This document shows, in pieces, positions 358 to 32,749 of a DNA stretch of 64,000 nt. A program made the position numbers and the translations under genes. Source of the DNA: Pseudoalteromonas sp. DL-6 (lineage in GTDB: Bacteria > Pseudomonadota > Gammaproteobacteria > Enterobacterales > Alteromonadaceae); NCBI RefSeq assembly GCF_004328665.1, contig NZ_CP019770.1, positions 2,356,001 to 2,420,000 on the forward strand, in the 5' to 3' direction. Position 1 is the stretch's first letter. Every line of letters starts with the position of its first letter. The notes under the pieces were generated by a model. That model was given only the letters and a program-made list of their open reading frames with translations. It did no database searches and was not told where the DNA came from.

Positions 358-1545
358 ATGAAGTCGTTTTTAAAAGCAGTATTAGCAGGATTAAGCACCA
401 CTGCGGTATTAACGTTTTCACCTTTTACCCACGCTCAGTGGTATGAGTCTACAGGCCATGCGGTTATTCAAAATAGCGACATTCCCGGTGCAAAGGCCGC
501 TGCAATAAAAGATGCAATTACCCAAGCCCTTGTATTCTCTGGGGCACGGGTGAGCTCGGTGCAAACGCTTGTTGATGGTGTTTTAACCCAAGATCAGCTA
601 AAAATAAGTAGCCAAGGCGAAATTCAAAAAATAGAGCTTGTCAGTGAAAACCGCAGCAGTGATGAGTTTGCAATTACCTTACGCTTAGATATCTTTGCGC
701 AAACAGAGCAATGTCCACAAAGTAACTTTAATAAGTTTATAGCTGTCACGCAAAGCCAATTAACAAATCGTGAACAAGCGAGAATGGGTCAAATATTTGA
801 CATTAACAAAGCAGTCAGTAAAAACATTTATACCTCGTTGCAAAAATCAAAAATGAGTGCAATACCCGTTGCCTATTTCAATAAAGCGATAAAAGTCGAT
901 ACTTACTTTAATCAACAACATGACTACTCTAATAGCCAGTTAGAGGAAATTTCATCGCGCAGTAACGCGCAATATGTGTTGTTAAGCCAAATTACCAGTT
1001 TATCCACCACCGATAAACTCAATAGCGACTATGCATTTTGGCAAGATGAAAGCTATCAGCGTCACTACCAAATAGAGTTTAGTTTATTTAATGGCACTAC
1101 TTATGAGCCCTTGTGGCAACAAAGCTATCAAAGCCAAGCCATCTGGCCATTTGAAAAAACAGCCATTATTGATGTAAACAGTAATCGTTTTTGGCAGTCG
1201 CCTTTTGGTCAAAGTATTAGTGAGATAAACCAAACCCTAAGTTACGATTTGCAAGCAGCCATGGCGTGTCTACCCACCCAAGGCAAAATTATGCACATGG
1301 AAAATAATAAACTCGTCATTAATTTAGGAAAGGCACATGGCTTAGAAAAAGGCCAACAGCTGAGTATTGCTCATCATAATTATTTAACAGACGCGCAAGG
1401 CAACACCATGCCGCATACTATAACCACTTTGAACCGTATTCGTGTAGAGCAGCTATATCAGCATAGCGCCATTGCCGTCAGTATTAATGATCAGCCTTTA
1501 CCGGGCGTACAAATTAACGATATTGTGGAAGTTGCAACGCCCTAA
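358..1545 (+). CDS. flgT: Flagellar assembly protein FlgT (H-ring component)
   Basis: A 395-residue secreted protein. A signal peptide of about 26 residues ends THA before QWYESTG. Length and sequence fit FlgT, the periplasmic protein that builds the H ring around the LP ring of sodium-driven polar flagella. The N-terminal domain (about residues 27-115) ends with a Cys-containing linker, a TolB-like middle domain follows, and the C-terminal SH3-like part (about 310-395) carries VINLGKAHGLEKGQQL. A GGAG ribosome site precedes the ATG. Its 3' end overlaps oxyR by 4 bp in convergent orientation. Confidence 0.88.
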   Translation: MKSFLKAVLAGLSTTAVLTFSPFTHAQWYESTGHAVIQNSDIPGAKAAAIKDAITQALVFSGARVSSVQTLVDGVLTQDQLKISSQGEIQKIELVSENRSSDEFAITLRLDIFAQTEQCPQSNFNKFIAVTQSQLTNREQARMGQIFDINKAVSKNIYTSLQKSKMSAIPVAYFNKAIKVDTYFNQQHDYSNSQLEEISSRSNAQYVLLSQITSLSTTDKLNSDYAFWQDESYQRHYQIEFSLFNGTTYEPLWQQSYQSQAIWPFEKTAIIDVNSNRFWQSPFGQSISEINQTLSYDLQAAMACLPTQGKIMHMENNKLVINLGKAHGLEKGQQLSIAHHNYLTDAQGNTMPHTITTLNRIRVEQLYQHSAIAVSINDQPLPGVQINDIVEVATP

Positions 1546-8961: not shown

Positions 8962-8967
8962 TAAAAA

Positions 8968-9065: not shown

Positions 9066-9081
9066 AAGCACGGAAGTTTTG

Positions 9082-9450: not shown

Positions 9451-9456
9451 ATGCTT

Positions 9457-9552
9457 TATAACAAGCTAATAAATAAGGACAAAAATCAGTTGACTGTTTT
9501 CGTTCCTCAACATTTTAGCCAACAACTTTTTGCCCATTATTAGGGCGTTATA
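9457..9552 (+). repeat. attC recombination site 2
   Basis: It begins TATAACAAGC and ends GGGCGTTATA, with inner complementary arms near AGTTG and CCAAC. Length (96 bp) and layout match the first site, so both probably belong to one integron lineage. Confidence 0.85.
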
Positions 9553-9568
9553 TGTCCAAAGGAAACAA

Positions 9569-9892: not shown

Positions 9893-9957
9893 CAAGTTGC
9901 TGCACTCGGAAAAATTACTCGCTGCGCTCCTAATTTTCCGGTGAGCAAGGCGTTACC
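9888..9957 (+). repeat. attC recombination site 3 (short form)
   Basis: A 70-bp imperfect palindrome from TATAACAAG to AAGGCGTTACC, with arms CGGAAAAATTA and TAATTTTCCG. It overlaps the stop codon of the VOC gene. It is shorter than the other two sites and has a different right core (GTTACC). Confidence 0.8.
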
Positions 9958-16158: not shown

Positions 16159-16276
16159 AGTATTCTCTTGTTTGATTATTTTTATAAACAGCGGCTAAAA
16201 GCAAATATGAAAGCTGTTTAATTTAAATGGTTTAATGCTTTGCTGACGCTAATACATAGCAACAGCAAACATAAAT

Positions 16277-18736: not shown

Positions 18737-18802
18737 ACTTAAACCATCCCTAAATACTGTGCTACAAGCCAACAAGGCTTTGCGTACAACTCGTTGATTC
18801 AA

Positions 18803-19218
18803 CGTGTTTCATGCTGTTTAGTGATGCTATATAAAATACGGTTAATAAGCAAAAATAAAAGGCATACAAAATAATGAGGCCGATAGCTGTATGCGTATAT
18901 ACAGTTCAAATGGTACATAAACATAAAAAGTCAAATCGATTATTTGCTACTTTATTTGTTCCCTACACCAAGTTAACCCATTAACTATCATAAACTTAAT
19001 AAAATATGTGTTCTCTTATTTGTTCCCTAATGTTCCTTTACTTGTTCCCTTTGGCCATAAACCTATTTTGTTTAATAACTCACTCCTAGTTACGGTTTAA
19101 GCAAGCCTCACTTTTGACTACTAATTTATAAAAGTAAAGCTCGCACAAGCTTTATAGGTGTTGAAATGTTTTGGTTTTAAGTAGTTTTTAAATAAATGGG
19201 CGAGCAGTCCTTTTAGTG
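18803..19218. other. Intergenic region upstream of the restriction operon with repeated motif
   Basis: No supportable gene in about 416 bp. The 14-bp sequence TTATTTGTTCCCTA occurs at 18952-18965 and 19016-19029. A third partial copy, TTGTTCCCT, is at 19042-19050, with a degenerate TGTTCCTTTA between. The repeats lie upstream of hsdR (minus strand) and could be operator sites for its expression. Confidence 0.6.
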
Positions 19219-20121
19219 CTAGGTCTTATTAAAACTGCGAGCACTATCGTAATCATCTAGCCATTCATCTACAGTCTGATCCTGTGGCCTTCGTGTATTA
19301 CCTCCCTTGTATTGCTTTATAGAAGGGGGTATGGCATTACTTGATACCGCACTACCTTGTTTACTTATATCGTAGTTAGGAACACTCGTAGTTTTAGTTG
19401 TAAGTGGTTCAAACGACTCGTACTTTACCTCTCCCGTAGTGTGACTAGCTTGTACCCATTGATGTATTTGGGCTAGCTCGTTTTTGCTGCCACCGCTATG
19501 CGACACTACTTGTTGCCCCTGAAGGCTGCCACTATTTAGCGCCACCAAGTTGCCACTCCTTTGCCACCTACTTGCCATTGAGTTGCCTTGCTCTAAACCC
19601 ACAATTATTTGCTGATGAGTGACATTGGCAAAAGATAGCTCATTACCTTCGAGCTTATTTTTATCCCTAAGAGTTGCTTGCCAAAAATACTCACTCATTA
19701 CATTTATCTTTTTGTAAAGCTCACACGGCCGCCTTGGTTTAGGCATAGCTAACCGGTTCCAAAGTTTCATTAATCCACTTTGCTTTGCTGCTGTAAACTT
19801 TTTACCTTTATAGCGTCCAGGTTGTTTTATCCTATTAAGTGACACGTTAAAAATTGTGTAGTAATCAGCATGCGTAGTTAGCTCGTAAAAGCGCAAAGTG
19901 ATGCCATCATATTGACCTTTTTTATAACCACCTACAGTAAAGTTTGTATAGGCATATATTGGCTGCTGGGTAACTTGACTAATTTGGCTAACTAAGGAGT
20001 TAGCATGTTCATTAATCCAATCAGTTGGCACCGCTTCACCGCTTTTTGGAGTTATATTTAATTTACCGTTAGTAATACTTACAACGTCACCTCGGTTAAT
20101 TAAATATTCAAGCTTAACCAT
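19219..20121 (-). CDS. Unknown island protein, 300 aa
   Basis: A soluble 300-residue protein with no signal peptide. The N-terminal half is basic with aromatic segments (HADYYTIFNVSLNRIKQPGRYKGKKF). The C-terminal half is low-complexity, rich in Ser, Thr, Gln and Gly, and looks disordered, ending with DEWLDDYDSARSFNKT. It follows a winged-helix protein gene by 8 bp, so it is probably in one operon with alpA. The basic N-terminus could bind DNA, perhaps in element replication or transfer, but I recognise no family. Confidence 0.65.
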   Translation of the reverse strand: MVKLEYLINRGDVVSITNGKLNITPKSGEAVPTDWINEHANSLVSQISQVTQQPIYAYTNFTVGGYKKGQYDGITLRFYELTTHADYYTIFNVSLNRIKQPGRYKGKKFTAAKQSGLMKLWNRLAMPKPRRPCELYKKINVMSEYFWQATLRDKNKLEGNELSFANVTHQQIIVGLEQGNSMASRWQRSGNLVALNSGSLQGQQVVSHSGGSKNELAQIHQWVQASHTTGEVKYESFEPLTTKTTSVPNYDISKQGSAVSSNAIPPSIKQYKGGNTRRPQDQTVDEWLDDYDSARSFNKT

Positions 20122-20129
20122 GTACCCTC

Positions 20130-20510
20130 CTAGCAGCCCATGAGGTTATTAATTGGTTTTAAAAGCTCAGTTTCTTGCTCTGATGTGTATTCAGCTAATT
20201 TACGATGAACACGGCTTTTATTTATGGCCTTAATGATATTTTCAGCTATTTCTAAAGAGGAGAAACTGTATTTAAGATAAGTACCGATGCCATCTTTGTT
20301 TGGTATTTTTTCACGATTAAATTTAAAAAAATATTCACGTTCAAGATTCGTGAAATAATTTCTTCCGCTTTTTAAATCTACGTTATTCAAAATATCTAAC
20401 TCAGTCGCGCCAACAGGGTGAGCAAGAATATATAGGGTAGCTCGCTCTTTTTTAGACTGTGGTTTTTTAGAGGCTGGATTGGCGGTTTTACTACCGCATA
20501 CAGCACTCAT
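20130..20510 (-). CDS. Small basic winged-helix-like protein, unknown function
   Basis: 126 residues. After a Lys/Ser-rich N-terminal tail, residues 25-85 (ATLYILAHPVGATELDILN...GRNYFTNLEREYFF) resemble a winged helix-turn-helix. It starts on the last base of the alpA stop (TAATG) and precedes the 300-residue unknown gene. Position suggests a regulator or accessory DNA-binding protein of the island. Confidence 0.65.
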   Translation of the reverse strand: MSAVCGSKTANPASKKPQSKKERATLYILAHPVGATELDILNNVDLKSGRNYFTNLEREYFFKFNREKIPNKDGIGTYLKYSFSSLEIAENIIKAINKSRVHRKLAEYTSEQETELLKPINNLMGC

Positions 20511-20710
20511 TATGCAGCCCCTTTGTGGTGTTTTACACTTGGTAAGTTTTCAAGCCATTGCTTAATATCGCTCTCAAGCCAACCCACCGAGTTTAAACCC
20601 AGCTGCTTTCTTTTTGGGAATAAACCTAAACGCTCTTTGCGTCGAATGGTTGATCGGCTTAAGCCTGTAAGCTTGATTACTTCTTTGGTACGTAAAATTT
20701 TGTTGTTCAT
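20510..20710 (-). CDS. AlpA-family HTH regulator / excisionase
   Basis: About 66 residues from ATG 20710; a TTG at 20740 is in frame but lies inside an inverted repeat. ILRTKEVIKLTGLSRSTIRRKERLGLFP is the MerR/AlpA-type helix-turn-helix, and GWLESDIKQWLE is the characteristic tail. AlpA proteins activate or act as excisionases for P4-like integrases such as the one at 21780-23018. It probably controls excision of this island. Confidence 0.85.
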   Translation of the reverse strand: MNNKILRTKEVIKLTGLSRSTIRRKERLGLFPKRKQLGLNSVGWLESDIKQWLENLPSVKHHKGAA

Positions 20711-20714
20711 TGAA

Positions 20715-20747
20715 ATCCGCCTTGTTTCTTTATAGGTCAAGGCGGAT
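20715..20747 (-). promoter_or_regulatory. Inverted repeat at the alpA ribosome site
   Basis: ATCCGCCTTG (20715-20724) and CAAGGCGGAT (20738-20747) are perfectly complementary across 13 bp. In the mRNA the second arm contains GGCGGA, the only plausible ribosome site for alpA, 4 bp from the ATG. It could be an RNA hairpin blocking translation or a protein operator. Confidence 0.55.
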
Positions 20748-20870
20748 ATTAGAGATTCAAAAAAAAAAGTTCCTGCAAGCTAAAGGTTGGTTTCAGAAAC
20801 CTAACATAACTTTCTATTTTTTATTTTTTATTTTTAATTTATTAATTAATAATTATTAATTAATAACAGC

Positions 20871-21767
20871 TTAGTCTTGAACTTTTTTCAACCACTCATT
20901 AATTATTTTCGGGATTGTTTCATTTTCAAGTGGTGGCTCATGTGTACTTGGCCAAAATAGCGGTGCTTTATCAATAACAAGCTTTGCTATCTTGGCACCC
21001 TTTATTGTGCCTGTCGATGTTACACATTGGTTGCGGTATTGGGCTAAAACGGCTAGTGCCGCTCCAAGAACTTCTTCACGATCCTTGGCATAGACTTCAG
21101 CTCTACCTGGGCGCTTTAAAGGATACAAACTATTTCCTGAACAACTTTGATTTTCTGTACTTATCTTAATTTTTTTTAACGCTGAAAAAGCAAAAAAATC
21201 ATCTCGCTTTATAAATAAATCATTAAACTGAGGATAGAAATATTCAATATAAGTAAATGGTATTTCATCTTTCGGAATATCTTGAGAAATCGAACACATT
21301 GCCCAAACTTGCCCATTTTCAGAAACTACTCTCTCAATTGGCTCTGTTACCTCTAGCTCATTACCAGTATTACCTCTGTTTGATAAATTTTTTGCTAGCA
21401 GTTCTTTAATTCGAGGATAAGCTTCCATTAAATCTAACTTGTAATAACCAACTAATTTATATACCTCATGCTCTTCGTTGTCATAATAAGGAAAACTATA
21501 CTTAATACCTATATGCCTATCTTGAAAAAAAATTTTTGACTCCTTATTGTGATAACTATAAGGGCTCTCAACAGAGTGTTCTAAGTACTCACTAGAAGGA
21601 TTATTTTTTTCGCACTTAAACCCATTTTTATTGTCAAAGTAGACATAAAACGAAAGCTCTTGTTTAAAATAACTCTCAATAAGTTCAATTAATAATGTTT
21701 GACTGGTATAGCGTGAGTTATTTTTCAACAACCAAATGGCGTGCTCAAAATCAATAAATTCATCCAT
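20871..21767 (-). CDS. Unknown integrase-adjacent protein, 298 aa
   Basis: A 298-residue acidic soluble protein. The N-terminal part contains IDFEHAIWLLKN and several Tyr-rich segments. The last about 75 residues (EEVLGAALAVLAQYRNQC...TGTIKGAKIAKLVIDKAPLFWP...PPLENETIPKIINEWL) look like a separate helical domain often found beside integrases in genomic islands. No function is known to me. It lies just downstream of the integrase by 12 bp, probably co-transcribed. Confidence 0.65.
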   Translation of the reverse strand: MDEFIDFEHAIWLLKNNSRYTSQTLLIELIESYFKQELSFYVYFDNKNGFKCEKNNPSSEYLEHSVESPYSYHNKESKIFFQDRHIGIKYSFPYYDNEEHEVYKLVGYYKLDLMEAYPRIKELLAKNLSNRGNTGNELEVTEPIERVVSENGQVWAMCSISQDIPKDEIPFTYIEYFYPQFNDLFIKRDDFFAFSALKKIKISTENQSCSGNSLYPLKRPGRAEVYAKDREEVLGAALAVLAQYRNQCVTSTGTIKGAKIAKLVIDKAPLFWPSTHEPPLENETIPKIINEWLKKVQD

Positions 21768-21779
21768 AATATTATTTTC

Positions 21780-23018
21780 CTAAATTGCTTTTAGATGGGC
21801 ATTTCCAGTAACAGAGTAATTACCCTTACTAGCTTCTTCAATATGATTAGACCACCAGCACATCATTTTTCTTCTGCGTTCTAAGTAATCAGTTCGGTTG
21901 TAGGCAGCACGAACTTTATTCTTATCTACATGTGCCAAAGCGGCTTCAATAACATCAGCATCAAAACCTTGCTCATTTAATGTGGTGCTAGCAAGTGCTC
22001 TTAACCCATGCGCTGTTTGCTTACCTATTAAACCCATGCGCCTAAGCGCTGCGCCTAAAGTTTCTCGGCTGGCATGCGCTCTAGGGTCTTTATCAGCAGG
22101 GAAAATAAATTCTCGATGCGCACTAATAGGTTTTAGGTACTCGAGTATAGCTAATGCCTGCGGTGATAAGGGAACTGTGTGTGGTTTGCGCTTTTTCATT
22201 CGCTCAACGGGAATATTCCATAGCTTATTTTCAAAGTCTATTTCATTCCAAGCAGCGCCGGCAGCTTCACCAGGGCGGACCATGGTATGTAGTTGCCATT
22301 CAAATAAGCACCGTGTCATCAACTTAATATTAGCGCTATTCACTATGCTAATAAGTTTAGGAAGCTCCTGGGGTGTGAAGCTAGCCATGCTGTTATGCTT
22401 GGCAGAATCAAACGCTTTACTTATACCACTTAGGTTATTTGTTTGTATTCGGCCTGTGTTAATAGCAAACTCCATAACCTCATTTACTCTGCGACAAATA
22501 CGCCCAAGAATATCGAGCTTATCAGCTGCGGCTAGAGGCTTTAATGCCGCAATTGCTTGTTGTGCCGATAACTTGCTAATCGGCACTTTCCCTAAAGAGG
22601 GAAACAAGTGGAGCTCAAAACCTCTTCGTAAATTAAAAGCATATCGCGCGCTTACTTTTGGCTCTTTTAAGGCTATCCACTCTTTAACTACGGCTTCAAA
22701 TGTACTTTTAGCTTCAGCAGCTTTATGGTTTGCAAATGCCTCTTTATGCTCTTTAGGATCTATGTTCTTTGCTAATAAGGCTCTGGCCTCATCTCTGCTC
22801 GTGCGAGCATCAGACAAAGTTACATCTGAATACATACCAAAACTAATTTGAGCTCTTTTTTTTGTGTAGGGTTTAGAGTAAGTAAATAACCACATTTTTG
22901 AGCCATTTGGCTTAACTCTTAAAGCAAGGCCTTTACCATCAGATAAAAGATATTCCTTTTCTTTTGGCTTCGCTTTTTTTACTTGGGTGTCATTTAATGG
23001 GGTAACTAATTTAGGCAT
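21780..23018 (-). CDS. P4-type site-specific tyrosine integrase
   Basis: 412 residues. An N-terminal DUF4102 arm-binding domain (PLNDTQVKKAKPKEKEYLLSDGKGL), a SAM-like core-binding domain, then the catalytic domain with Arg in MVRPGEAAGAAW, HGLRALAST, His in ALAHVDKNKVRAAY and a nucleophile Tyr in RTDYLERR. These integrases insert islands into tRNA 3' ends. The gene lies 258 bp from tRNA-Arg, whose 3' end faces it, so that tRNA is the likely target. Confidence 0.93.
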   Translation of the reverse strand: MPKLVTPLNDTQVKKAKPKEKEYLLSDGKGLALRVKPNGSKMWLFTYSKPYTKKRAQISFGMYSDVTLSDARTSRDEARALLAKNIDPKEHKEAFANHKAAEAKSTFEAVVKEWIALKEPKVSARYAFNLRRGFELHLFPSLGKVPISKLSAQQAIAALKPLAAADKLDILGRICRRVNEVMEFAINTGRIQTNNLSGISKAFDSAKHNSMASFTPQELPKLISIVNSANIKLMTRCLFEWQLHTMVRPGEAAGAAWNEIDFENKLWNIPVERMKKRKPHTVPLSPQALAILEYLKPISAHREFIFPADKDPRAHASRETLGAALRRMGLIGKQTAHGLRALASTTLNEQGFDADVIEAALAHVDKNKVRAAYNRTDYLERRRKMMCWWSNHIEEASKGNYSVTGNAHLKAI

Positions 23019-23276: not shown

Positions 23277-23351
23277 TGGTAGCCCCTGCAGGAATCGAAC
23301 CTGCAACTGCCCCTTAGGAGGGGGCCGTTATATCCATTTAACTAAGAGGCC
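23277..23351 (-). tRNA. tRNA-Arg (anticodon CCU)
   Basis: A 75-nt cloverleaf on the minus strand with encoded CCA. The anticodon stem CCCC/GGGG encloses the loop CTCCTAA, giving anticodon CCU. The T arm carries GGTTCGATTCC, and the D arm and anticodon stem resemble E. coli tRNA-Arg(CCU). The acceptor stem would have a G1-U72 wobble. The 3' end faces the integrase, a common island target site. Confidence 0.93.
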
Positions 23352-23418: not shown

Positions 23419-24096
23419 TTAATTGCTTGATAAATATATATCTTCTTTATTTAGTACGTAAAGCGGTATAAATGTTCGGCTGCTGGCGGCAAGGCGCTTA
23501 TTTTCAATATTTATCACGCGAGCATTAATAACAACCCCATCGGCACGGTAAATTAAAGTACCCGATAAAACATGGCTGGCTATATTCGTACCTGCAAGCT
23601 TTCGAGTGTCTCGCGTGAATGTAAAGTCACCTTGATTGTTTACGGTAATTAAATTCGCTGTTTTAAAATCAACCGCACTATAACCAAATTTTTGCAGCTG
23701 ATGTATAAAGGTTTCTGATAACTGATTACCTAACTGGCTTGCTGTAGTTAAACTTGCGTCTAAATCAACGAACGAGGTGACTGCAATCGCTGCATCTTGC
23801 GGGGCTACTTGCATAGTGTCGGTTAAATCAAGTGCCATTTGCTCTACGTAGTTAACTAAACTTTTATGATGCTTGTTTGGGTTAAATTGCGTTGTATCGG
23901 CGTATTGTTCTTGCTCGTTATTTTGCTGCATTTGCGCCATGATCTGGTTAAAATCAAGATTGCTTACCACTGTTTGCTCAGGCTCAGACTTGGCGGGTTC
24001 AGTCATATTAGATTCACCAAGTAAATTACAACCTGAAATAAATATTGATAACGCACTTATGCTAATTAAAGCCGAGCGTTTAGCTAAGTTAACCAT
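23419..24096 (-). CDS. FlgO-like outer membrane lipoprotein (paralogue 3)
   Basis: About 225 residues from ATG 24096, chosen because GAGG is correctly spaced. A signal peptide ends in the lipobox ISGC. The body has the FlgO-family pattern VNYVEQMALDLTDTM, ITSFVDLD-like strand (AVTSFVDLDASL), GNQLSETFIHQLQKFGYSAVDFKT and GTNIASHVLSGTLIY...NARVINI. FlgO is an outer membrane lipoprotein linked to flagellar stability in Vibrio. Here it sits far from flagellar genes, last in a surface-fibre operon. Confidence 0.8.
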   Translation of the reverse strand: MVNLAKRSALISISALSIFISGCNLLGESNMTEPAKSEPEQTVVSNLDFNQIMAQMQQNNEQEQYADTTQFNPNKHHKSLVNYVEQMALDLTDTMQVAPQDAAIAVTSFVDLDASLTTASQLGNQLSETFIHQLQKFGYSAVDFKTANLITVNNQGDFTFTRDTRKLAGTNIASHVLSGTLIYRADGVVINARVINIENKRLAASSRTFIPLYVLNKEDIYLSSN

Positions 24097-24104
24097 GGTA
24101 AACC

Positions 24105-24782
24105 TCACTTACTCGCTTGTTTTAGCATGATGCCATCAGCACTGTTACTGCTATTTAACGCATCAATGACCGATTGCGGAATAAAGCCCTGTGCAGAGCC
24201 TACAACCGCTTTACTCGCTAAGCCAACAATTCGTGCATTTACTAATATACCGCCTTGATGGTTTACTAGCGTACCCGCTAATACGTAACTAAAGTTTTGT
24301 TCTTGGTTTAGCTCTAAATAATCGCGGCTAAAAACAAAATCGCCACCAGGGGTTACACGCATATAATCGGTGGTTTTAAAATCAATGACCGGCACACCAA
24401 AATTATGCAGTTCGTGCATAAAACTCTCTGCGATTTGGTTACCTACTAAATCAGCATTGTTGTAGTCACGGTCTAAAAAAACAAAACTCGATACCGCCAA
24501 TGGCGTTTTAGTATTTACGTACTGTAAGTTTTCCGCCATGTCTTGCATGATGCCACGCACATAGTGATTAATATTTTTACGTGTTGGTGTATTTACTTGT
24601 TTGTTTTTATTCATCACTGCAGCTTTATTTTGATACAGCGAATCTGTATTTGTTGGTGCAGCTACAGGGCGTTGCTCAAAAAACATAGGCGCATCGTCGT
24701 TAATTTGCGTGTCACTATGGTTTGTCATTTGTGAACAACCAAAGCCCAGTGGCAAACATAAAGTTAATAGTAGGCGTTTCAT
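24105..24782 (-). CDS. FlgO-like outer membrane lipoprotein (paralogue 2)
   Basis: 225 residues. The lipobox is GFGC after a short signal peptide. This copy is closest to canonical FlgO: VNTKTPLAVSSFVFLDRDYNNADLVGNQIAESFMHELHNFGVPVIDFKTTDYM, then GGDFVFSRDYLEL and SYVLAGTL...NARIVGL. GGAG precedes the ATG. It ends a few bases before the start of the next paralogue. It may act as a periplasmic-facing outer membrane ring component; function inferred from family only. Confidence 0.83.
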   Translation of the reverse strand: MKRLLLTLCLPLGFGCSQMTNHSDTQINDDAPMFFEQRPVAAPTNTDSLYQNKAAVMNKNKQVNTPTRKNINHYVRGIMQDMAENLQYVNTKTPLAVSSFVFLDRDYNNADLVGNQIAESFMHELHNFGVPVIDFKTTDYMRVTPGGDFVFSRDYLELNQEQNFSYVLAGTLVNHQGGILVNARIVGLASKAVVGSAQGFIPQSVIDALNSSNSADGIMLKQASK

Positions 24783-24794
24783 GTGTGCTCCTAA

Positions 24795-25388
24795 TTAATA
24801 TTCACTGCGGTAAATAAAGTCACCGCGCTGCTGTATTTTTTCATTACTCCACATCACATTGATGGGAATTTCAGTGCTTGCGGCAGATACAATTTGATTA
24901 GTTTGCATATTTACCATGCGAGCATTAACAATATAAGCATGTTCTTGACGGGTTAGAGTACCGGTGATCACAAAGTCAATAATCTGACGCTGCTTTAAAT
25001 TACTGGTACTGCGACTTAACACTGAATCAGCGCTCGCTGATAAATTAAGCTGGTTTTCAAGCCGGTATTCAACTGTGTTGTACCCTAACTGAGTAAATTG
25101 GGTTATTAAGCTTTCTTGAACTTGCTGACTAAGCCCTGCTCCCTGCCCTTGGGCAATTTGTGAATCCAAAGCATTGGCTAAATAAAAGCTGCTGACCGCA
25201 ATTGATGCGGTGCTTTTAAAAGGCTCTTTGATATGGCTAAGCTGGGCACTCAAGCTATTCACGTACTGGTCGAGCGTATAAGGTGCCATGACTGCTTTAG
25301 GCGCATCAGTGCTTATACTCGGCTTTGGCTGGGGTGTTAAGCTACAGCCCGCTAAATTTAATAATAGTAAGGGTAACAAAAGGCGCAT
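24795..25388 (-). CDS. FlgO-like outer membrane lipoprotein (paralogue 1)
   Basis: About 197 residues from the second ATG (25388), which has AGAGGA at the right distance. Lipobox LAGC. Shared FlgO features: LDQYVNSLSAQLSHI, IAVSSFYLANALDS, VQESLITQFTQLGYNTVEYR and FVITGTLTRQEHAYIVNARMVNM. It is the most divergent of the three. The three copies are adjacent and co-directional, implying ancient tandem duplication. Confidence 0.75.
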   Translation of the reverse strand: MRLLLPLLLLNLAGCSLTPQPKPSISTDAPKAVMAPYTLDQYVNSLSAQLSHIKEPFKSTASIAVSSFYLANALDSQIAQGQGAGLSQQVQESLITQFTQLGYNTVEYRLENQLNLSASADSVLSRSTSNLKQRQIIDFVITGTLTRQEHAYIVNARMVNMQTNQIVSAASTEIPINVMWSNEKIQQRGDFIYRSEY

Positions 25389-25455
25389 AGTTGCCATCCT
25401 CTAAAAACATAATAGTTACAAAGCAATTATTATGCCTAATACCCTAGATACATAT

Positions 25456-26112
25456 TTATTTTAATGGCTGTTGGGTGTAATGGCTCACAATGCAGTTGAT
25501 TTGGCGCTGTTTAAGTTTATCGCAATCGGCAGCGGCATTGGCTTGATTTTGATAAGCCCCAAGCTTTAAACGGTAGTAAGTCATGCCACTCACGTTAATA
25601 GTTTCTACATTCGCCACAAATTCGCCCTGAAATAACGAAGATGCACTGGCCTTTATTTGATTTAAACTTTGGCTAAGTCGCTCTTTGTCGGTAACGGCTG
25701 CCACTTGTAAGGCAAATAAGGCTTTAACGGCTTGTTTTTCATCAGCTGTATTCGATGCCACTTTAGCTTTTTGTACAACTTTTGGTGCTACTGTTTCAGC
25801 CGAAGTTTTAGCTGTTGGTACTACAGGCGTATTTATTGATGCAGAGCCTTGTTTTGCTACCGCATTTAATTGGCTTATTAATAACTTTAAGTCTTGTTCA
25901 ATCACTAATAAACGTTCAACACCTGCTTTGGCTGCTTGCCATTGCTGAGACGATGCTTTTAGCTGCGCCAACTCTTCCTCAGAAAGATTGGCACTCGCTT
26001 GCATTGGCTGAGGAGATTCTGCAGTTTTGGGGGTGCTGCATCCTGATATAAAAAGAGCAGCAATACAGGCAATTAGTATTGAGTAGCGTTTATATAAATT
26101 AGCATATTGCAT
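25456..26112 (-). CDS. SPOR-domain lipoprotein A
   Basis: 218 residues. Signal peptide with lipobox ISGC. An N-terminal helix (LAQLKASSQQWQAAKAGVERLLVIEQDLKLLISQL) is shared with the two other SPOR lipoproteins here. An Ala/Thr/Val linker follows, then a C-terminal SPOR domain (about 130-218) with FALQVAAV, YYRLKLGAYQNQANAAADCDKL and CIVSHY. SPOR domains bind denuded peptidoglycan. Two Cys in the domain could form a disulfide. It lies 18 bp after the usher-like gene. Confidence 0.8.
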   Translation of the reverse strand: MQYANLYKRYSILIACIAALFISGCSTPKTAESPQPMQASANLSEEELAQLKASSQQWQAAKAGVERLLVIEQDLKLLISQLNAVAKQGSASINTPVVPTAKTSAETVAPKVVQKAKVASNTADEKQAVKALFALQVAAVTDKERLSQSLNQIKASASSLFQGEFVANVETINVSGMTYYRLKLGAYQNQANAAADCDKLKQRQINCIVSHYTQQPLK

Positions 26113-26130
26113 GGTTAAACCTTATTGTTA

Positions 26131-29121
26131 TTAGTGGCTAATAAGTTGCGCTTGGACTTGGCAGTTCAAGCCTTTTACTTTTAATTCTGCACATACTTGT
26201 TCAAGTTCCCCTTGCGCAGACTCGGCATAAGCGACGGCTAAAATATACCGTTTTTGTTTTTCGTCTTTAATATAAAAAGCATCTCGCTTTGATTGCTCAT
26301 TTAAATGACGTTTAATAAGTTGATAATACGCTTTCATAATTGGCAATGATGAAAACCCACCCGCATTAGCAATATACGCTGGCGTTTGTGTTTTTTCTTT
26401 AAGCTCAAAGTCAACGCCCATTACGACTTCGCCTTGCGCTGGTAATTTAACCACCACCTGTTGCGTATCTTTTAAGGATTTACGTTGCTTAAACTCATCA
26501 TCTATAACCGCTTTATATTCGCCAGGGCGTAAATCGGTAAACAAATAATAGCCATCATAGGCAGCTTGCGTTTGCGCCACTTGCTTACCTTGTTTGTCGA
26601 GTAATTTTACGGTAGCAAAAGGCTGTACTTCACTACTGCCTTGCTCATCTTGTTTGTAAACAATTCCCTCTAATTCACTACTGTTATTAAGCGGTATTTC
26701 CATATATTCAACAAAGCCGGCACGCGGCGTAATAGAAAAGCCATCGTTGGCGGCAACTAAAAAAGGATCGCTAATACTATCTGGCTCTATCACTATGTCG
26801 GTTGTTCTATTTGCTGGCATACCTTTAAGAATCGCTAAACCATTTTCGTTGGTTACAGCTCGGCGATAGTTTTGAACTCCTTTTACCTTAACGCCCTCAA
26901 TTCCCTTTTCTCCATCATCTTGAATATTGTTATTATTTGAATCAAGAAAGACTCTAACCATTAAAGTGCCAGAGTTTGCGAGGCTTCTTTTACTTAAAAA
27001 GTACTCGTCAGTGTTCGTATCAAAACCAATACTAAAGCGACTAAATAAACCTAGTCGCCAATTATCATCATCGTCGTAACTCATTGTGCTATTTAAGCTA
27101 AAACTATCGCTTTGCCAATTTAGACCCAACTCCATAGAAACTAAATCATTTATACGGGAGTTTCTTAGTGTGAATTCAGATTGTAAATTCTGAGATAAAC
27201 TACGGCTTAATTCTGCTTGGTAACCCAGTATAGTTGAACCGGAGTCTGCGCTGTAGTCAACACTAAAACGAGTGTATGTTTTACCAAATCTATGTTGAAG
27301 ACGCATACTGCCAAGTGTTGTTGCATCATCTAAAGAATCAAACTTTCGCCAAATTAAGTTGTTACTAACAACGGTACCGCCTAAATTATAAGATAAGGTA
27401 TTATCAACACTTAAATATGAGTCGCTAAACTCTCTGTTGTTATAGGCGAGCGTATTTTGATAACTCAAACTTCCAAATGATTTATCAAACAACTTTCCTG
27501 CCGTATATAATCGATAACTTTCAGTTTTCGCTGTTTCTGTATCACCAACTATTTTCTCATTGTTTTGAGACAGACTTAAACGTACCGATTGACCAATTAA
27601 TTCACCTCTAGCAGCTACCTCTAGCTTATCTTCATCGTTATTATTTTTTTCATAATCTAGATTAAGTAATACTTTATCAAATATACTTAGGTTTGAACCA
27701 AAAGCATAATTGTTAACATTATCACCCGAATTGCTATTTAATATTGATGTACCAGCATAAACCGATAAATAATCAGTTAATCCCGTTTCATAACGACCCG
27801 CTAGCTGCCAACCTTTGCCCTCTGTCGAATAAAGTGATTGATTAAATAACTGCTCACCTTGCTCAGTAATCGACAACTCATAAAACGATTCATCTGCTGA
27901 CAAACTATTACCATCTATAAAATATTGCTCTGTTTTTCGCTCTACTTGCCCTTGTGGGCCGTAAAAAATCAGCTCAAAATTATTAGCACCAAACAATAAA
28001 TCAATATCTTCAAATAAATAACGCCCATCAGCTAAACTAAACTGCTGCGCTAGCAGTACATCATTACGGTATAACTCAACATCCCACCCTGGTTGAATAG
28101 CACCCGTTAAATTAATTTGATTACTATTAACCTGTTTAAAAAGTGGTTTGTTATCAACTTTTACTCCTCTGGCGTAACTACTATTAAATTGTTTACCGAC
28201 TTGAGTTGCTAATACATCTCCAAATTGAACAGTTGTCGCATTTAAGGGACCTAATAACCGTGCATCTTTACTTTGACGGCTAAATGATAATCTTGAATCT
28301 GATAGTAAATCTTGTTTTCGCCCTGCAAAAAAATACTGAGCATTAAAATAGGCTAAGTCATTTGACCCTAATACAGAGTACCCTATCGCTGAATCCGTAT
28401 TACTCTTGGTTGCACTAAGCTGCACATCAGCAAGAGGAGATGAAATTGCACTGTATGGACTGGCCTTCCACTGTAATATAGCTTGACGAGACTCTATATT
28501 AGTAACAGTTTCTCGCTGCTCTCTTTCGCGTTTTAATTCTATAGGTAATTTGGTAGGGGAGCTTACATATAGCTCAAGTGCTGAATATTCAATATCAATA
28601 TCTAACGAAAACCACTGCGCTAGCAAGTTACTATCAACAAACATATCGCCGTTATCAGCATAAGCTTGTTGGCTGTTAAATGAATATCTAGCGCCGTTAA
28701 TTTGTGCTGTGTTTGTATTTAGGTCTAGATAAAACTGATTATCTTCACGAATAAACCACCCTTGAGCAATAAGGTCATCGCTATTTATATCGATAGCAAA
28801 ATCCAGGCTTTCTGAAAAACTTAATAAATCTATTAATACACCGGTTTTACTTTTCACCCCGAGCATTTCACCCAGGTAATTTTTTTTCACGAACGATGAA
28901 AAAAATAATAACTCACCTTCGGGGATGCCATCACCTTGCTGCACATTAAGCTCAGGCTCTGTTCTTTCATTTAAAGCTTGTTCAGTGTTGTATTGCTGCC
29001 ATTTTTTATCTATTTTTTTTATGCTAGCAAGAATGGCCTGATTGTCAGGCTCTGCTGCTAATAATGGACCAATTGATAAAAAAATGATCAACAACCACTT
29101 TAAGCGTTTAAAGTAATACAT
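26131..29121 (-). CDS. Usher-like outer membrane protein with C-terminal SPOR-like domain
   Basis: 996 residues. Signal peptide (about 1-22). N-terminal periplasmic domain (about 25-215), then a long Asn/Tyr/Ser-rich beta-barrel region (about 215-730) with usher-like PGWDVELYRNDVLLAQQ and FEDIDLLFGANNFELIFYGPQGQ, the E-set/plug style of the CS1/TcfC alternative ushers. Next come two Ig-like modules: VFLDSNNNNIQDDGEKGIEGV, which is SdrD-B-like, and a carboxypeptidase-regulatory-like one. The last about 70 residues (YILAVAYAESAQGELEQVCAELKVKGLNCQVQ) resemble SPOR. It would secrete the DUF4402-like subunits. It starts 3 bp after the chaperone stop. Confidence 0.72.
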   Translation of the reverse strand: MYYFKRLKWLLIIFLSIGPLLAAEPDNQAILASIKKIDKKWQQYNTEQALNERTEPELNVQQGDGIPEGELLFFSSFVKKNYLGEMLGVKSKTGVLIDLLSFSESLDFAIDINSDDLIAQGWFIREDNQFYLDLNTNTAQINGARYSFNSQQAYADNGDMFVDSNLLAQWFSLDIDIEYSALELYVSSPTKLPIELKREREQRETVTNIESRQAILQWKASPYSAISSPLADVQLSATKSNTDSAIGYSVLGSNDLAYFNAQYFFAGRKQDLLSDSRLSFSRQSKDARLLGPLNATTVQFGDVLATQVGKQFNSSYARGVKVDNKPLFKQVNSNQINLTGAIQPGWDVELYRNDVLLAQQFSLADGRYLFEDIDLLFGANNFELIFYGPQGQVERKTEQYFIDGNSLSADESFYELSITEQGEQLFNQSLYSTEGKGWQLAGRYETGLTDYLSVYAGTSILNSNSGDNVNNYAFGSNLSIFDKVLLNLDYEKNNNDEDKLEVAARGELIGQSVRLSLSQNNEKIVGDTETAKTESYRLYTAGKLFDKSFGSLSYQNTLAYNNREFSDSYLSVDNTLSYNLGGTVVSNNLIWRKFDSLDDATTLGSMRLQHRFGKTYTRFSVDYSADSGSTILGYQAELSRSLSQNLQSEFTLRNSRINDLVSMELGLNWQSDSFSLNSTMSYDDDDNWRLGLFSRFSIGFDTNTDEYFLSKRSLANSGTLMVRVFLDSNNNNIQDDGEKGIEGVKVKGVQNYRRAVTNENGLAILKGMPANRTTDIVIEPDSISDPFLVAANDGFSITPRAGFVEYMEIPLNNSSELEGIVYKQDEQGSSEVQPFATVKLLDKQGKQVAQTQAAYDGYYLFTDLRPGEYKAVIDDEFKQRKSLKDTQQVVVKLPAQGEVVMGVDFELKEKTQTPAYIANAGGFSSLPIMKAYYQLIKRHLNEQSKRDAFYIKDEKQKRYILAVAYAESAQGELEQVCAELKVKGLNCQVQAQLISH

Positions 29122-29124
29122 CGC

Positions 29125-29949
29125 CTATTTCAAATTACCGATAATTGCATTATTGATTGGCGCAAACTTTTCACTAAAAATAGTATCGCGATATTCTTTA
29201 AGCCCTGTATAAATGACGCGAATTTGGCCATTTTTCGGGATATTTTGATCTGCAAAAATTGGTATCGTCGCCGTTGTTCTTTTTAGTTCTGGGTAAATAC
29301 TAAAATCGTTTAACATGGCGATCTTTTTCTCTGTATCCGTTCCTTTTTGCTTAAAGAAAACTTCTAGCTTACCAAAAGAACTAAAGTCACCCTCTCGCTT
29401 AATTTCAATCTCAAGCGCCTTTTTTTCTGGGCTGTGTATAAGCTGTAAATTACTGATATTTACATTGGGTTTTTCAGCACCTTTTCGCAAAATAACGGGA
29501 ATCGTGTAGCTTAAGAGTAAGTTTACCTTGATGCCTAGTCTCTGTTGCTGACTTTGAGCTTCATTAGGGAGTGCTTTAAAGGCTAGATGAGAGCGGTATT
29601 CCTGCTCTGCTAAACCTTTCGGCTTTCGAATAGCAAGCTTAACTATTTGCCTTTCTCCTGGCGCTAATCTAACTTGCGATGGGCTGATCCTAACCATATT
29701 TTTAAGTGAAGATGAACTTTCTTGATCAGCCGCTAAATTAGCATACCCTCCGCCAGCTAGTGCAACTTTGTCTTGCCACTCCAACCTGTAGGTTTTAGGT
29801 TCATTAGAGTTATTAACAACAATAACTTTAGCAACACGCTGACGCTCATCAAAATTAACTCTTGTTGGAGAAATAAGTAAGTTTGCATAAGAATGAAAGC
29901 TAATTAAAATAAAGCTTACTAAGATAAAAAAAGTTTTTATTATTGTCAT
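29125..29949 (-). CDS. Periplasmic fimbrial chaperone, PapD-like
   Basis: 274 residues with a signal peptide (about 1-22). ANLLISPTRVNFDERQRVAKVIVVNNSNEPKTYRLEW and APGERQIVKLAIRKP are the first Ig-like domain signature of pilus chaperones; Arg of SPTRVNF and Lys further on match subunit-carboxylate-anchoring positions. EYRSHLAFKALP and LSYTIPVILRKG form the F1-G1 region that donates a strand to subunits. It lies between the putative subunit genes and the usher, as in chaperone-usher operons. Confidence 0.82.
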   Translation of the reverse strand: MTIIKTFFILVSFILISFHSYANLLISPTRVNFDERQRVAKVIVVNNSNEPKTYRLEWQDKVALAGGGYANLAADQESSSSLKNMVRISPSQVRLAPGERQIVKLAIRKPKGLAEQEYRSHLAFKALPNEAQSQQQRLGIKVNLLLSYTIPVILRKGAEKPNVNISNLQLIHSPEKKALEIEIKREGDFSSFGKLEVFFKQKGTDTEKKIAMLNDFSIYPELKRTTATIPIFADQNIPKNGQIRVIYTGLKEYRDTIFSEKFAPINNAIIGNLK

Positions 29950-29970
29950 TTAATCAATATCTCTAGTTGT

Positions 29971-30420
29971 CTAATAATTTAACGTCACTTCAATTGTAGT
30001 ATCAAAGATACCATCTTTATAAGTATTTCCGTCACCTGAGGTACTTAATTGCCCCCCAACTCTCAATAACGCAGTCCCTGTGGTATCGGTTGTAATAGTC
30101 GCATTGTATATGAGTTGATTTAAAATAAGTGATGCACCACCGAAAATATTATTTAAAGGTTGGTCGTTTATAAAGTCACTTACATTTACTTGAATGCGAG
30201 CTGGATACCCTTCGAGCAACAATTCAGCTGCATGGCCTTTTTCAAGTAAATATATCTTATTGGTTAAGGTATTTGTATTACTAGGCAACAAAGTTATAGA
30301 GCTAACACTTTGATTATCACTAATAACAATTTTACCAAAGTTCAATTGCTCAAGTGGTGTTACCTGCGCGTACGAACCTGAAGTTAAGAAAGCTGCTAGA
30401 ATGAATAAAATTAATTTCAT
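29971..30420 (-). CDS. Minor DUF4402-like fibre subunit
   Basis: 149 residues with a signal peptide (about 1-18). FGKIVISDNQSVSSITLLPS and the C-terminal YKDGIFDTTIEVTLNY echo the larger subunit gene immediately upstream (YIDGTYSGSFTLELNY). The terminal Tyr after a beta-strand is typical of chaperone-bound pilus subunits. It could be a tip or adaptor subunit. No adhesin domain is visible. Confidence 0.62.
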   Translation of the reverse strand: MKLILFILAAFLTSGSYAQVTPLEQLNFGKIVISDNQSVSSITLLPSNTNTLTNKIYLLEKGHAAELLLEGYPARIQVNVSDFINDQPLNNIFGGASLILNQLIYNATITTDTTGTALLRVGGQLSTSGDGNTYKDGIFDTTIEVTLNY

Positions 30421-30425
30421 AAAAT

Positions 30426-30450
30426 AGCCTGCTTTACAATAAAGCAGGCT
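30426..30450 (-). promoter_or_regulatory. Stem-loop between major and minor subunit genes
   Basis: A perfect 10-bp stem AGCCTGCTTT/AAAGCAGGCT with a 5-nt loop, in the 37-bp gap after the major subunit gene. There is no long U run, so it is more likely an mRNA-stabilising or partial-termination element, as known downstream of major pilin genes. Confidence 0.65.
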
Positions 30451-30457
30451 TTGCTCA

Positions 30458-31048
30458 TTAATAGTTTAATTCTAATGTGAATGAGCCACTGTAAGTGCCA
30501 TCAATGTAGTCACTCGTAGGTGTAGTGGCATCTGTAGTTAATGTAGCACCAACATTAAATGTCGCTTCACCATTTGCGTCTACCTGAATTGTAGTTGTCG
30601 CTGCACTGTTAGGCGTCGCGCCAGTTAGCACATAATACGTTGGAGTACCCAAAGTAAATGCTGCAGTACCAGCAGGTGCTGCATCAGGTGAAATAGCAGT
30701 TTCTGTCGGATTTGTAATTGTCAGTGAACCGAAAGGTGACACGCCAGAAACAGAAAAAGCGGCTGGTGCACCTGGTACTAAAATTGCGATTTCAGCATCT
30801 GCAATCGATGTAGAAGCTGTTGTAGGTGAGGTCGCTGGGTTTGCAGCTAACACAAGGGTAGCTGTTTCAGTTGTTGTTAAATCCGCTGAGGCACGAATTG
30901 TTCCAAAATCTAGTGCCGAATCGTTAGTCAAGGTAAAAGCATTTTGAACTGTAACACCTGCTTGAAACGAAACCGATTCAGCTACAGCACCGAAAGAAAG
31001 AACTGCCATTGACGCAGCCAACGCTGCTTTAGTAAATATTTTGTTCAT
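30458..31048 (-). CDS. Major DUF4402-like fibre subunit (pilin-like)
   Basis: 196 residues with a clear signal peptide ending AVAES. The mature protein is rich in Thr, Ala, Ser and Pro: VQNAFTLTNDSALDFGTIRA is the DUF4402 N-terminal pattern and GSFTLELNY the C-terminal strand. No Cys in the mature region. Placement first before the chaperone and usher genes, plus a downstream stem-loop, suits a highly expressed structural subunit. Confidence 0.7.
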   Translation of the reverse strand: MNKIFTKAALAASMAVLSFGAVAESVSFQAGVTVQNAFTLTNDSALDFGTIRASADLTTTETATLVLAANPATSPTTASTSIADAEIAILVPGAPAAFSVSGVSPFGSLTITNPTETAISPDAAPAGTAAFTLGTPTYYVLTGATPNSAATTTIQVDANGEATFNVGATLTTDATTPTSDYIDGTYSGSFTLELNY

Positions 31049-31067
31049 AGTTTTCCCTTAGATATAA

Positions 31068-31096
31068 ATTATAAACCTGTCAGTCAGGTTATGTTA
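31068..31096 (-). promoter_or_regulatory. Promoter with palindromic spacer before the major subunit gene
   Basis: On the minus strand a consensus TATAAT (31068-31073) is preceded by AACCTG-N5-CAGGTT (31074-31090) filling the usual 17-bp spacer. A weak -35 TAACAT is at 31091-31096. A palindrome between the -10 and -35 is a typical repressor or MerR-like site. Confidence 0.5.
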
Positions 31097-31184
31097 AGTA
31101 TCGGCCAAAATCACTAAAAAGTTAGAAAATATTTACTTTATTTTGATTTATAATAACAGGATGCAGAAATAAACGTTAAAAACC

Positions 31185-31790
31185 TTAAACACCCTCTGAA
31201 AATGCCGCTAAGGTACACTTATTACCTATTTTGTAAAAAAACAAACACAGCTGCGCTGCTTGCTGCTGATTTTTCAAAGGGCCTGCTACAACATCATAAA
31301 ACGTAGTGGATTCTTTTTGTTGTTCATTAATGCGGTATTTTAAAATACTGTTTAATTGAGGGTATTGCTCTTTTAGTCGCTGCACTTGCCTTTTGGCTCC
31401 AGTAGAAATTAAATAGCGACCAATTTGCACACCGTAAATCGCTTTATTTGTACTGGTAGTATTATCAGCTAAAACGGTTTCTGATGAGGGTTGTAAAGGT
31501 TGCTTAGAGCCATACTCAACACGTTTAATTTTCTCTTTCATCGGCTCTGGTACGGTATCAATATCTGTTTGTGCAGAAAGTGCTTGAATCAATAACGATA
31601 AGTCTTCTTCCATGGTGCTTAAGCGCGCTATTTGCTCTTTGTTGTTATCCCATTGCTCTAGGTAAGGTTTTATATCTTTTTTACTAACAAGATCGTCGCT
31701 TTGAGGGTTTGAGAGCATTAGTTGGTTGCTGCACCCAACTAATGCAAATGGTATTAGTAATATTATTAAACGAAGTTTCACTTTAGGCAC
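31185..31790 (-). CDS. SPOR-domain lipoprotein B
   Basis: 201 residues; lipobox LVGC after a hydrophobic signal. N-terminal LEQWDNNKEQIARLSTMEEDLSLLIQAL matches the helix shared by the other two SPOR lipoproteins. C-terminal part IYGVQIGRYLISTGAKRQVQRLKEQYP...YDVVAGPLKNQQQAAQLC is SPOR-like. It lies upstream of the subunit genes, separated by 136 bp that contain the subunit promoter. Confidence 0.75.
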   Translation of the reverse strand: MPKVKLRLIILLIPFALVGCSNQLMLSNPQSDDLVSKKDIKPYLEQWDNNKEQIARLSTMEEDLSLLIQALSAQTDIDTVPEPMKEKIKRVEYGSKQPLQPSSETVLADNTTSTNKAIYGVQIGRYLISTGAKRQVQRLKEQYPQLNSILKYRINEQQKESTTFYDVVAGPLKNQQQAAQLCLFFYKIGNKCTLAAFSEGV

Positions 31791-31846
31791 CTATTACAAA
31801 AAACTAGCTATAGCTATTATGCAATAAAAGCGCCAAGTAAATTATT

Positions 31847-32749
31847 TTATAATCTGATTGGTTTATCCGTGTAATTACTCACAAAGCAATCAACTTTATA
31901 AAATTTAAACACTTCACAATCATCCTCGGCGCTCTTAAAGTTATAGTATTCACCTAACTTTAATCGGTAATAGGTTTTATTATTGACCTTGGCTTTTTCC
32001 ACGTTAGTAGTAATTTTATCTCTGAATAGAGGCGCCGCTTTTCTATTAATTTTCTTCCACTGCTTAGCAACACTCTCTTCTGAATCAAGCGACGCTACCT
32101 GCAAAGCAAATACCTTTTTATTAGTATCAACCATTGCCACTTTTGTTGCCTTCGATATTTTAGAAGCGACCTTTTTATTCATCCTTGGATTAATAGCTTT
32201 CACTGGCGAACGAACAGAGCGGTTACTGTAGCTTTTTGAAGGGGCTGTAATCATTTTTTTAGGTACACTTGCATAGCGACTGTTATATCGCTGATTTTGT
32301 AGATCGTCCCTATTAGTTGGTTTTGCGTAGCGATTACTATATCTTTGCTTTGGGCGCTCAACTTTATCTGACGTGCTTGCGTAGTTATTACCATACCTGA
32401 GGTTTGGCGATGTATTAGCCTTAATTGATGAGCGTGCATAGCGATTGCTAACAGCCTGATTTGATTGCGCTATTGCTTTACTATTAATAATATCTAAATT
32501 ATCAACTAAATATGTAAGCTCGCGTTCTAATTTTAATAGCCGCTCAATACCAGAGCGCGCCTGTTGCCATTGCAAGGCGGCATCTTTTAGCTGTGCAAGC
32601 TCAAGTGCGGTAATGGTTACATATTCGGGCGAGTCTTTAACTTGTTCATTTAACGATGTTTTATCAGGCGATATTGTACAGCCACTCCCTATTAACATAA
32701 GTAAAGCTATAACTAGATATCGGTGATACTTTATGCTGTATTCACACAT
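31847..32749 (-). CDS. SPOR-domain lipoprotein C with repetitive Arg-Tyr linker
   Basis: About 300 residues from ATG 32749; an upstream TTG at 32767 is in frame. Lipobox GSGC. N-terminal LAQLKDAALQWQQARSGIERLLKLERELTYLVDNL is the shared helix. Residues about 95-190 form a basic, repetitive linker with repeated motifs like RYSNRYA and RYNSRYA. C-terminal SPOR domain (FALQVASLDSEESVAKQWKKI...YYRLKLGEYYNFKSAEDDC). It is first in the cluster. The basic Arg/Tyr linker could cross or bind the peptidoglycan layer. Confidence 0.78.
   Translation of the reverse strand: MCEYSIKYHRYLVIALLMLIGSGCTISPDKTSLNEQVKDSPEYVTITALELAQLKDAALQWQQARSGIERLLKLERELTYLVDNLDIINSKAIAQSNQAVSNRYARSSIKANTSPNLRYGNNYASTSDKVERPKQRYSNRYAKPTNRDDLQNQRYNSRYASVPKKMITAPSKSYSNRSVRSPVKAINPRMNKKVASKISKATKVAMVDTNKKVFALQVASLDSEESVAKQWKKINRKAAPLFRDKITTNVEKAKVNNKTYYRLKLGEYYNFKSAEDDCEVFKFYKVDCFVSNYTDKPIRL

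Follow-up and report, generated by a model that had tools for sequence, protein, structure and literature searches.

Gene content of the locus

In the 64,000-nucleotide stretch of the Pseudoalteromonas sp. DL-6 genome that we analyzed (hereafter the window), ten co-directional genes on the minus strand between positions 23,419 and 32,749 encode a chaperone-usher system together with SPOR and FlgO lipoproteins. All ten called genes are real: gene calls and profile matches bear out the inventory given in an earlier note made from the sequence alone, namely DUF4402 subunits, a PapD-like chaperone, a 996-residue usher, and SPOR and FlgO lipoproteins. That note had also read the ten genes as one composite surface machine. 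Our analysis retains the SPOR part of this proposal and divides the genes into two units, an usher unit and a unit consisting of FlgO1, FlgO2, and FlgO3.

The usher unit begins with SPOR lipoprotein A (31847..32749), which has 300 residues counted from the ATG at 32749 (the reading frame opens at a TTG at 32767), matches PF05036 with an E-value of 2.5e-7 and 31.4 bits, and displays a lipobox (GSGC), the helix QW..RL..E.EL, and the glutamine in strand beta-1 of its SPOR domain. Downstream of it lies a sigma54-like −24/−12 site, TTGGCGCTTTTATTGCA (31820..31836), which scores 7/8 against the known consensus and precedes SPOR lipoprotein B (31185..31790; 201 residues, GTG start, lipobox VGC; SPOR E 2e-5, 25.3 bits). 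SPOR lipoprotein C (25456..26112; 218 residues; E 1e-9, 38.5 bits) closes the unit, so that all three lipoproteins score above the PF05036 cut-off of 21 bits.

Between B and C lie the genes for the fiber subunits, the chaperone, and the usher. DUF4402 subunit 1 (30458..31048; 196 residues; PF14352 E 4e-7), likely the major fiber subunit, follows a sigma70-like promoter (31068..31097; TTAACA-18-TATAAT, 11/12), although the sigma70-like scan as a whole gave 26 sites against 29.6 in shuffled sequences and thus no excess. An 11-pair hairpin just 3' of the gene (30426..30450) is a possible attenuator and would fit an excess of subunit 1. Among 15 loci inspected, stable hairpins were also found at this place in L004, L005, L022, L023, and L041, and none in L009, L013, L026, L047, and others. 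Subunit 2 (29971..30420; 149 residues) matches PF14352 with the same E-value of 4e-7. The model of subunit 1 is all-beta with a pLDDT of 89.0, and 147 of 160 DUF4402 relatives end in a C-terminal tyrosine or phenylalanine. The PapD-type periplasmic chaperone (29125..29949; 274 residues; PF00345 E 6e-8) and the usher (26131..29121) follow.

The SPOR-tailed usher and its lipoproteins

The 996-residue protein consists of an N-domain, a barrel (residues ~225–710), SdrD_B-like domains (~720–900), and a SPOR-type tail (26134..26409, codons 905–996). Its predicted fold matches FimD/PapC with an E-value of 1e-27 and displays the outer-membrane barrel, plug, and periplasmic domains of an usher; in 77 of 79 loci, a chaperone reading frame lies next to the usher gene. 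In a genome search in which the E. coli control matched, the window usher gave no match to the Pfam Usher model PF00577 even at E 10, and none of 26 members of its family matches that model. The notion that the protein is not an usher because this model fails is contradicted by the predicted fold. Searches of solved structures with the usher, its alignment, or an alignment of the SPOR lipoproteins returned no usher or SPOR match. In databases, these ushers are labeled MSCRAMM family, SdrD B-like, SPOR domain-containing, sporulation, or hypothetical protein. Since they escape the Pfam Usher model and carry such scattered names, a widespread secretion family may have been overlooked. A literature search outside of which subscription papers and bioRxiv lay, and which therefore does not establish absence from print, found no paper on DUF4402 together with an usher; three papers naming both a SPOR domain and chaperone-usher systems, and four naming both FlgO and an usher, have titles and abstract openings on other subjects.

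A second SPOR-tailed usher cluster resides on another contig of the same genome (L082, G000:C2:53396-55693). It comprises a DUF4402 gene, a chaperone gene, and a gene for a 1072-residue usher, with neither SPOR lipoproteins nor FlgO beside it, and Pfam SPOR matches this second usher (G000:C2:55517-55696). In one genome of the genus, the usher gene is split over two frames (G256:C2:1070526-1072888).

In the model, residues ~905–996 of the usher adopt the beta-alpha-beta-beta-alpha-beta arrangement of a SPOR domain. Comparison of the tails of related ushers with the SPOR domains of the lipoproteins by HHalign yielded 98.35% and an E-value of 1e-14; a relationship of the tail to FlgO could be dismissed at 0.31%. 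Pfam SPOR matches four of 26 usher family members. Against a hidden Markov model (HMM) derived from the lipoproteins, 47 of 88 usher tails pass E 1e-3, 22 including that of the window usher match weakly, and 19 are not found. Since the tail comes after the region aligning with the C-terminal domains of FimD (VIA model ranges extend to 906–909), it should be periplasmic. The glycan-contacting glutamine of strand beta-1 is present in only seven of the 88 tails and is replaced by asparagine in the window usher. Longer ushers of 1318–1560 residues, in Desulfobacterales and a proteobacterial metagenome-assembled genome (MAG) (L070, L072, L075, and L079), have strong SPOR tails with E-values from 1e-14 to 1e-19; three of these four loci have an 8/8 sigma54-like site upstream of the usher gene.

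The corresponding glutamine is found in all three window lipoproteins and in 86 of 131 family members; 45 lack it, 29 of which have histidine instead. In RlpA, the equivalent contact with glycan is made by Q270, according to PMC6895207. By a pattern of our own, a lipobox is present in 104 of 123 SPOR lipoproteins, compared with 95 of 816 other reading frames. The shared helix which the earlier note had pointed out in these proteins is indeed distinctive, its signature occurring in 97 of 131 family members against one of 1116 others. A 25-row alignment shows two invariant cysteines late in the C-terminal SPOR domain.

Linkage and co-occurrence, together with the SPOR-type tail of the usher itself, support the view that the SPOR lipoproteins belong to the usher system. 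For 77 of 88 ushers, a gene for such a lipoprotein is located no more than 6 kb away. In an order-level sample of 148 genomes, whole-length matches to them, helix included, were found only in G000, G056, G030, G061, and G036 (in two pieces in the last), and these are exactly the five genomes with an usher match of at least 460 bits (Fisher 1.8e-9). Five other genomes of this sample match the SPOR part alone, and nine more have weaker usher matches and no such whole-length lipoprotein. Per genome, at most 18 first-look candidates were scored among the matches listed for the order sample, and at most 34 in a genus sample of 80 genomes, taken as Pseudoalteromonas from its named loci and proteins. 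Strict dependence of the lipoproteins on the usher holds in the order sample but not in the genus: of the 32 genus genomes lacking a strong usher, 15 retain a match. In one locus (L138:10418-11933), the usher core is absent, one SPOR gene is truncated, and three FlgO genes are open, which provides a natural test of dependence.

FlgO genes and sigma54-like promoters

Downstream of SPOR lipoprotein C lie FlgO1 (24795..25397; PF17680 E 2e-32; PDB FlgO 9yfg E 9e-15), FlgO2 (24105..24782; PF17680 E 6e-42; PDB 9yds E 6e-36), and FlgO3 (23419..24108; PF17680 E 2e-39; PDB 9yds E 2e-27). All three thus match both the Pfam family and solved FlgO, of which each of the two PDB entries contains 58 chains, and the genome search revealed no other FlgO in this genome. 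A role of FlgO in the flagellar H-ring is described in PMC7990780.

The idea that FlgO is part of the usher machine is not supported by comparison among genomes, and we reject a usher-specific FlgO as the principal explanation. In the order sample, 85 genomes have both FlgO and FlgT (one of them, G111, with a weak FlgO match in a 390-residue frame), three have FlgO alone, all weak matches in frames of 520–727 residues, four have FlgT alone, and 56 have neither. Where the earlier note asked whether FlgO recurs with SPOR and usher genes in other genomes, SPOR accompanies the strong usher and FlgO instead accompanies FlgT. FlgO was found in 79 of the 80 genus genomes and a strong usher in 48. Of the 32 that lack a strong usher, 31 retain FlgO; the sole genome without FlgO, G207, lacks the usher as well. 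By our reading of the coordinates, FlgO lies within ~6 kb of the usher in 47 of the 48 strong-usher genomes; in G242, the two are on separate contigs. In three of the five strong-usher genomes of the order sample (G030, G036, and G056), FlgO is not near the usher.

The neighborhood of the genes points in the same direction. Usher-bearing Pseudoalteromonas loci have the order thyA–galU–SPOR–two DUF4402 genes–chaperone–usher–SPOR–three FlgO genes–tRNA-Arg. The tRNA gene is followed by flgT–flgN–flgA–cheV, either immediately (as in L018, L030, L037, and L042) or with oxyR/prx/lpd genes in between (as in L012, L013, and L054); in several loci, the fetched flank stops short of flgT. FlgO adjoins flgT in L018, L030, L084, and others and is solitary in L083, L088, and L092. 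Eleven genomes of the genus that lack an usher match at 1e-50 were fetched. In every one, FlgO remains beside tRNA-Arg, with two to four FlgO genes between the tRNA gene and galU or thyA (no galU was seen in L130 or L139). The fetched sequence includes flgT in nine of them, and six still have SPOR genes; remnants of subunit, chaperone, or usher genes were found in none. Because of the co-occurrence with FlgT, the retention in usher-less genomes, the place beside tRNA-Arg, and a sigma54-like promoter of its own, FlgO is best read as flagellar. A FlgO tree resolves at least three paralogue lineages, in which genes from usher-linked, flagellar, and solitary settings are mixed; several deep nodes are poorly supported, and no clade is clearly restricted to usher-linked genes.

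In the window itself, tRNA-Arg(CCT) (23277..23351, minus strand) adjoins the FlgO genes, as in the Pseudoalteromonas loci read, and flgT (358..1545, plus strand) marks the end of the flagellar cluster. Between flgT and FlgO are oxyR-prx-lpd-DHH and an inserted island (6410-23018). Its genes, named by reading their sequences, include an integrase (21780-23018), a type I restriction system (12842-18802), an ATPase (11496-12845), and a recombinase with an IS91-like transposase (6410-8328). The G+C content drops to 0.32 at 10–12 kb, and a search of the window for another copy of the tRNA-Arg end found none.

Flagellar genes commonly use sigma54, which has a well-known promoter consensus. When 200 bp upstream of each gene were scanned for GG-N8-TTGC, the motif was found at 83 of 114 first and seven of 156 later FlgO genes, at 23/23 flgB, 31/34 flgA, and 36/43 flgT genes, and at none of 29 cheV, 44 thyA, and 36 galU genes and 79 of 1200 unlabeled reading frames. 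A second scan, restricted to intergenic sequence and to sites scoring at least 6/8, revealed sites upstream of 45 of 99 SPOR genes, 17 of 40 ushers, six of 28 chaperones, and two of 117 DUF4402 genes in the usher unit; the flagellar values were 74/95 for the first FlgO, 22/23 for flgB, 35/41 for flgT, and 21/33 for flgA, with 13/674 for unlabeled reading frames. In the window, such a site, TAGGCATAATAATTGCT (25422..25438, minus strand), lies in the gap between SPOR C and FlgO1, and in usher-less relatives, FlgO is preceded by one in all ten scorable cases.

At the level of whole loci, an intergenic sigma54-like site occurs in 55 of the 93 that contain an usher, compared with 2.5 expected in shuffles, and the site stands upstream of whichever gene leads the usher unit. 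By our count, the 55 comprise 19 Pseudoalteromonas loci and 36 from elsewhere, the latter including Psychromonas, Paraglaciecola, Glaciecola, two Desulfobacterales MAGs, and one proteobacterial MAG; a few sites (e.g., L023–L025) lack TTGC. Because of this excess and the position of the site at the leading gene in varied lineages, the usher operon looks sigma54-driven across the family, and the sites suggest flagellum-type control.

Two probable adjacent units and their relation to known systems

These data are best accounted for by two adjacent, separately promoted units, a SPOR-tailed chaperone-usher fiber system and a flagellar FlgO1-2-3 set, an arrangement that we consider probable. The first unit would export a thin fiber built from two DUF4402 subunits, each a single domain, by way of a divergent usher of the FimD/PapC type that bears an extra SPOR-type domain on its predicted periplasmic C terminus. 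The dedicated outer-membrane SPOR lipoproteins would most likely attach to denuded glycan and would keep the usher at the wall or position it there; the usher tail, in which the glutamine is mostly missing, more likely docks to these lipoproteins or to other wall proteins. In our reading, then, the lipoproteins may hold the wall while the tail holds the lipoproteins. Transcription would probably start from the putative sigma54 promoter upstream of SPOR B, which would likely subject the fiber to the kind of control that governs the polar flagellum. The second unit, with its own predicted sigma54 promoter, would be a flagellar outer-membrane ring set at the border of the flagellar cluster.

Several observations weigh against this interpretation. 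The similarity of the subunit 1 model to pilins is weak, with CfaB and type 1 pilins among the best hits and none scoring below E 0.02, and the window usher tail is below the Pfam SPOR threshold and weak against the lipoprotein-derived HMM (E 0.012). The genus-level link between lipoproteins and usher is looser than that in the order: at a SPOR threshold of E 1e-15, a match is found in 41 of 48 strong-usher genomes, seven missing it, and in 15 of 32 others (Fisher 3.9e-4). No sigma54-like site is seen in 38 of the 93 usher loci, and the 55 that have one are related sequences, not independent cases, a relatedness for which the shuffles make no correction. The gap between SPOR C and FlgO1 is only 58 bp and the scan shows no terminator there, so read-through from SPOR C into FlgO1 is likely. 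Of 46 genomes searched outside the genus, 17 have FlgO and the usher no more than 10 kb apart, with five different gene orders among them; in 15 of these 17, all but L047 and L061, the fetched flank contains no flagellar marker. This proximity search covered 50 of 78 loci, with 25 Pseudoalteromonas loci and L067, L077, and L081 outside it; L045 was outside it too, which leaves 49 genomes. FlgO matches occur in 40 of the 46 non-Pseudoalteromonas genomes, and five genomes with a linked FlgO hold a second FlgO set on another contig (L103–L107). Finally, FlgO also flanks a second usher type (L085, L094, L095, and L133–L136), near which no SPOR lipoproteins of this family were found, save a doubtful one in L133. 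Shared ancestry of an old neighborhood could explain much of this linkage, though not clearly all of it.

It is this linkage that keeps the single composite machine in play, in which an FlgO ring would form an outer-membrane collar around the usher and SPOR proteins would tie it to the wall. The 58 chains per PDB entry make a large FlgO ring plausible, FlgO adjoins the usher in nearly all strong-usher genus genomes, and linkage without flagellar genes in the flanks occurs in Paraglaciecola, Colwellia, Bowmanella, Alteromonas, and others. Moreover, an extra usher-adjoining FlgO is present in genomes that hold another FlgO set (L041, L044, L048, L049–L051, L053, and L063), and the second usher type has FlgO beside it too. 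However, FlgO follows FlgT rather than the usher, persists where the strong usher is missing, is separated from it in G242, and has its own sigma54-like promoter; the usher loci of Shewanella, Psychromonas, Glaciecola, and Desulfobacterales have no FlgO within 10 kb flanks, and in Thalassomonas it is ~13 kb away. A collar function of FlgO is thus possible but less likely, and we consider the complete composite machine improbable. A further elaboration, a sigma54-controlled fiber made together with the polar flagellum, with SPOR proteins and usher tail anchoring the pore to denuded glycan at the new cell pole while FlgO paralogues encircle both flagellum and usher, appears rather unlikely to us.

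A different objection concerns the SPOR modules, which might no longer bind peptidoglycan and serve only as protein–protein adaptors that aid folding or insertion of the divergent usher, with no cell-cycle or polar placement. The absence of the glutamine from 81 of 88 usher tails and 45 of 131 lipoproteins would agree with this, and conservation of the N-terminal helix among the lipoproteins suggests that they have a protein partner; retention of the glutamine in all three window lipoproteins and in most of the family speaks against it, as does the statement in PMC6895207 that every SPOR protein known so far functions in division or morphogenesis. On balance, we regard a purely adaptor role as unlikely. 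The interval between thyA/galU and flgT might also be an old insertion site for fimbrial operons, which would strip the links to FlgO and sigma54 of functional meaning. Two usher types indeed fill this interval in different genomes (L123 versus L135 and L136), and an island sits at the window tRNA-Arg. Yet sites of the sigma54 type are found again upstream of usher clusters in distant lineages whose gene order differs (Desulfobacterales L070 and L072, MAG L079), and the linkage persists outside this interval, which makes such a hot spot a highly improbable explanation.

Ushers are generally regarded as free-standing outer-membrane pores. An usher family with an added module of the wall-binding type, SPOR lipoproteins of its own, and apparent sigma54 control would allow a test of whether fiber secretion can be tied to place and time in the cell cycle. 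The locus also illustrates that a FlgO gene adjoining another operon can be misread as part of that operon.

With its SPOR-tailed usher family, its own SPOR lipoproteins, and probable sigma54 control, the system is a variant of the chaperone-usher kind. Like FimD and PapC of type 1 and P pili, it has a predicted barrel with N- and C-terminal periplasmic domains, a PapD_N chaperone, and small secreted subunits; it differs in escaping PF00577, in the SdrD_B-like C-terminal domains and SPOR-type tail of the usher, in its SPOR lipoprotein partners and sigma54-like promoters, and in that the cluster contains no gene for a larger tip adhesin. With FtsN, DamX, DedD, and RlpA, the lipoproteins share a terminal SPOR domain on a membrane- or lipid-anchored protein, a low-complexity linker, and a mostly conserved beta-1 glutamine, whereas their linkage to an usher cluster, their own helix signature, and the placement of their cysteine pair, compared with the FtsN pair as given in PMC6895207, set them apart. 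The usher tail departs further from these SPOR proteins, its domain being fused to an outer-membrane pore and the glutamine mostly lost. The FlgO genes, in turn, resemble those of the Vibrio H-ring set of FlgO, FlgP, and FlgT in having the FlgO domain and a lipobox, in co-occurring with FlgT and lying next to flgT, and in being preceded by a sigma54-like site, as are flgB, flgA, and flgT; they differ in being three paralogues, where the Shewanella locus L109 has one, and in abutting a chaperone-usher operon in the usher-bearing species of the genus.

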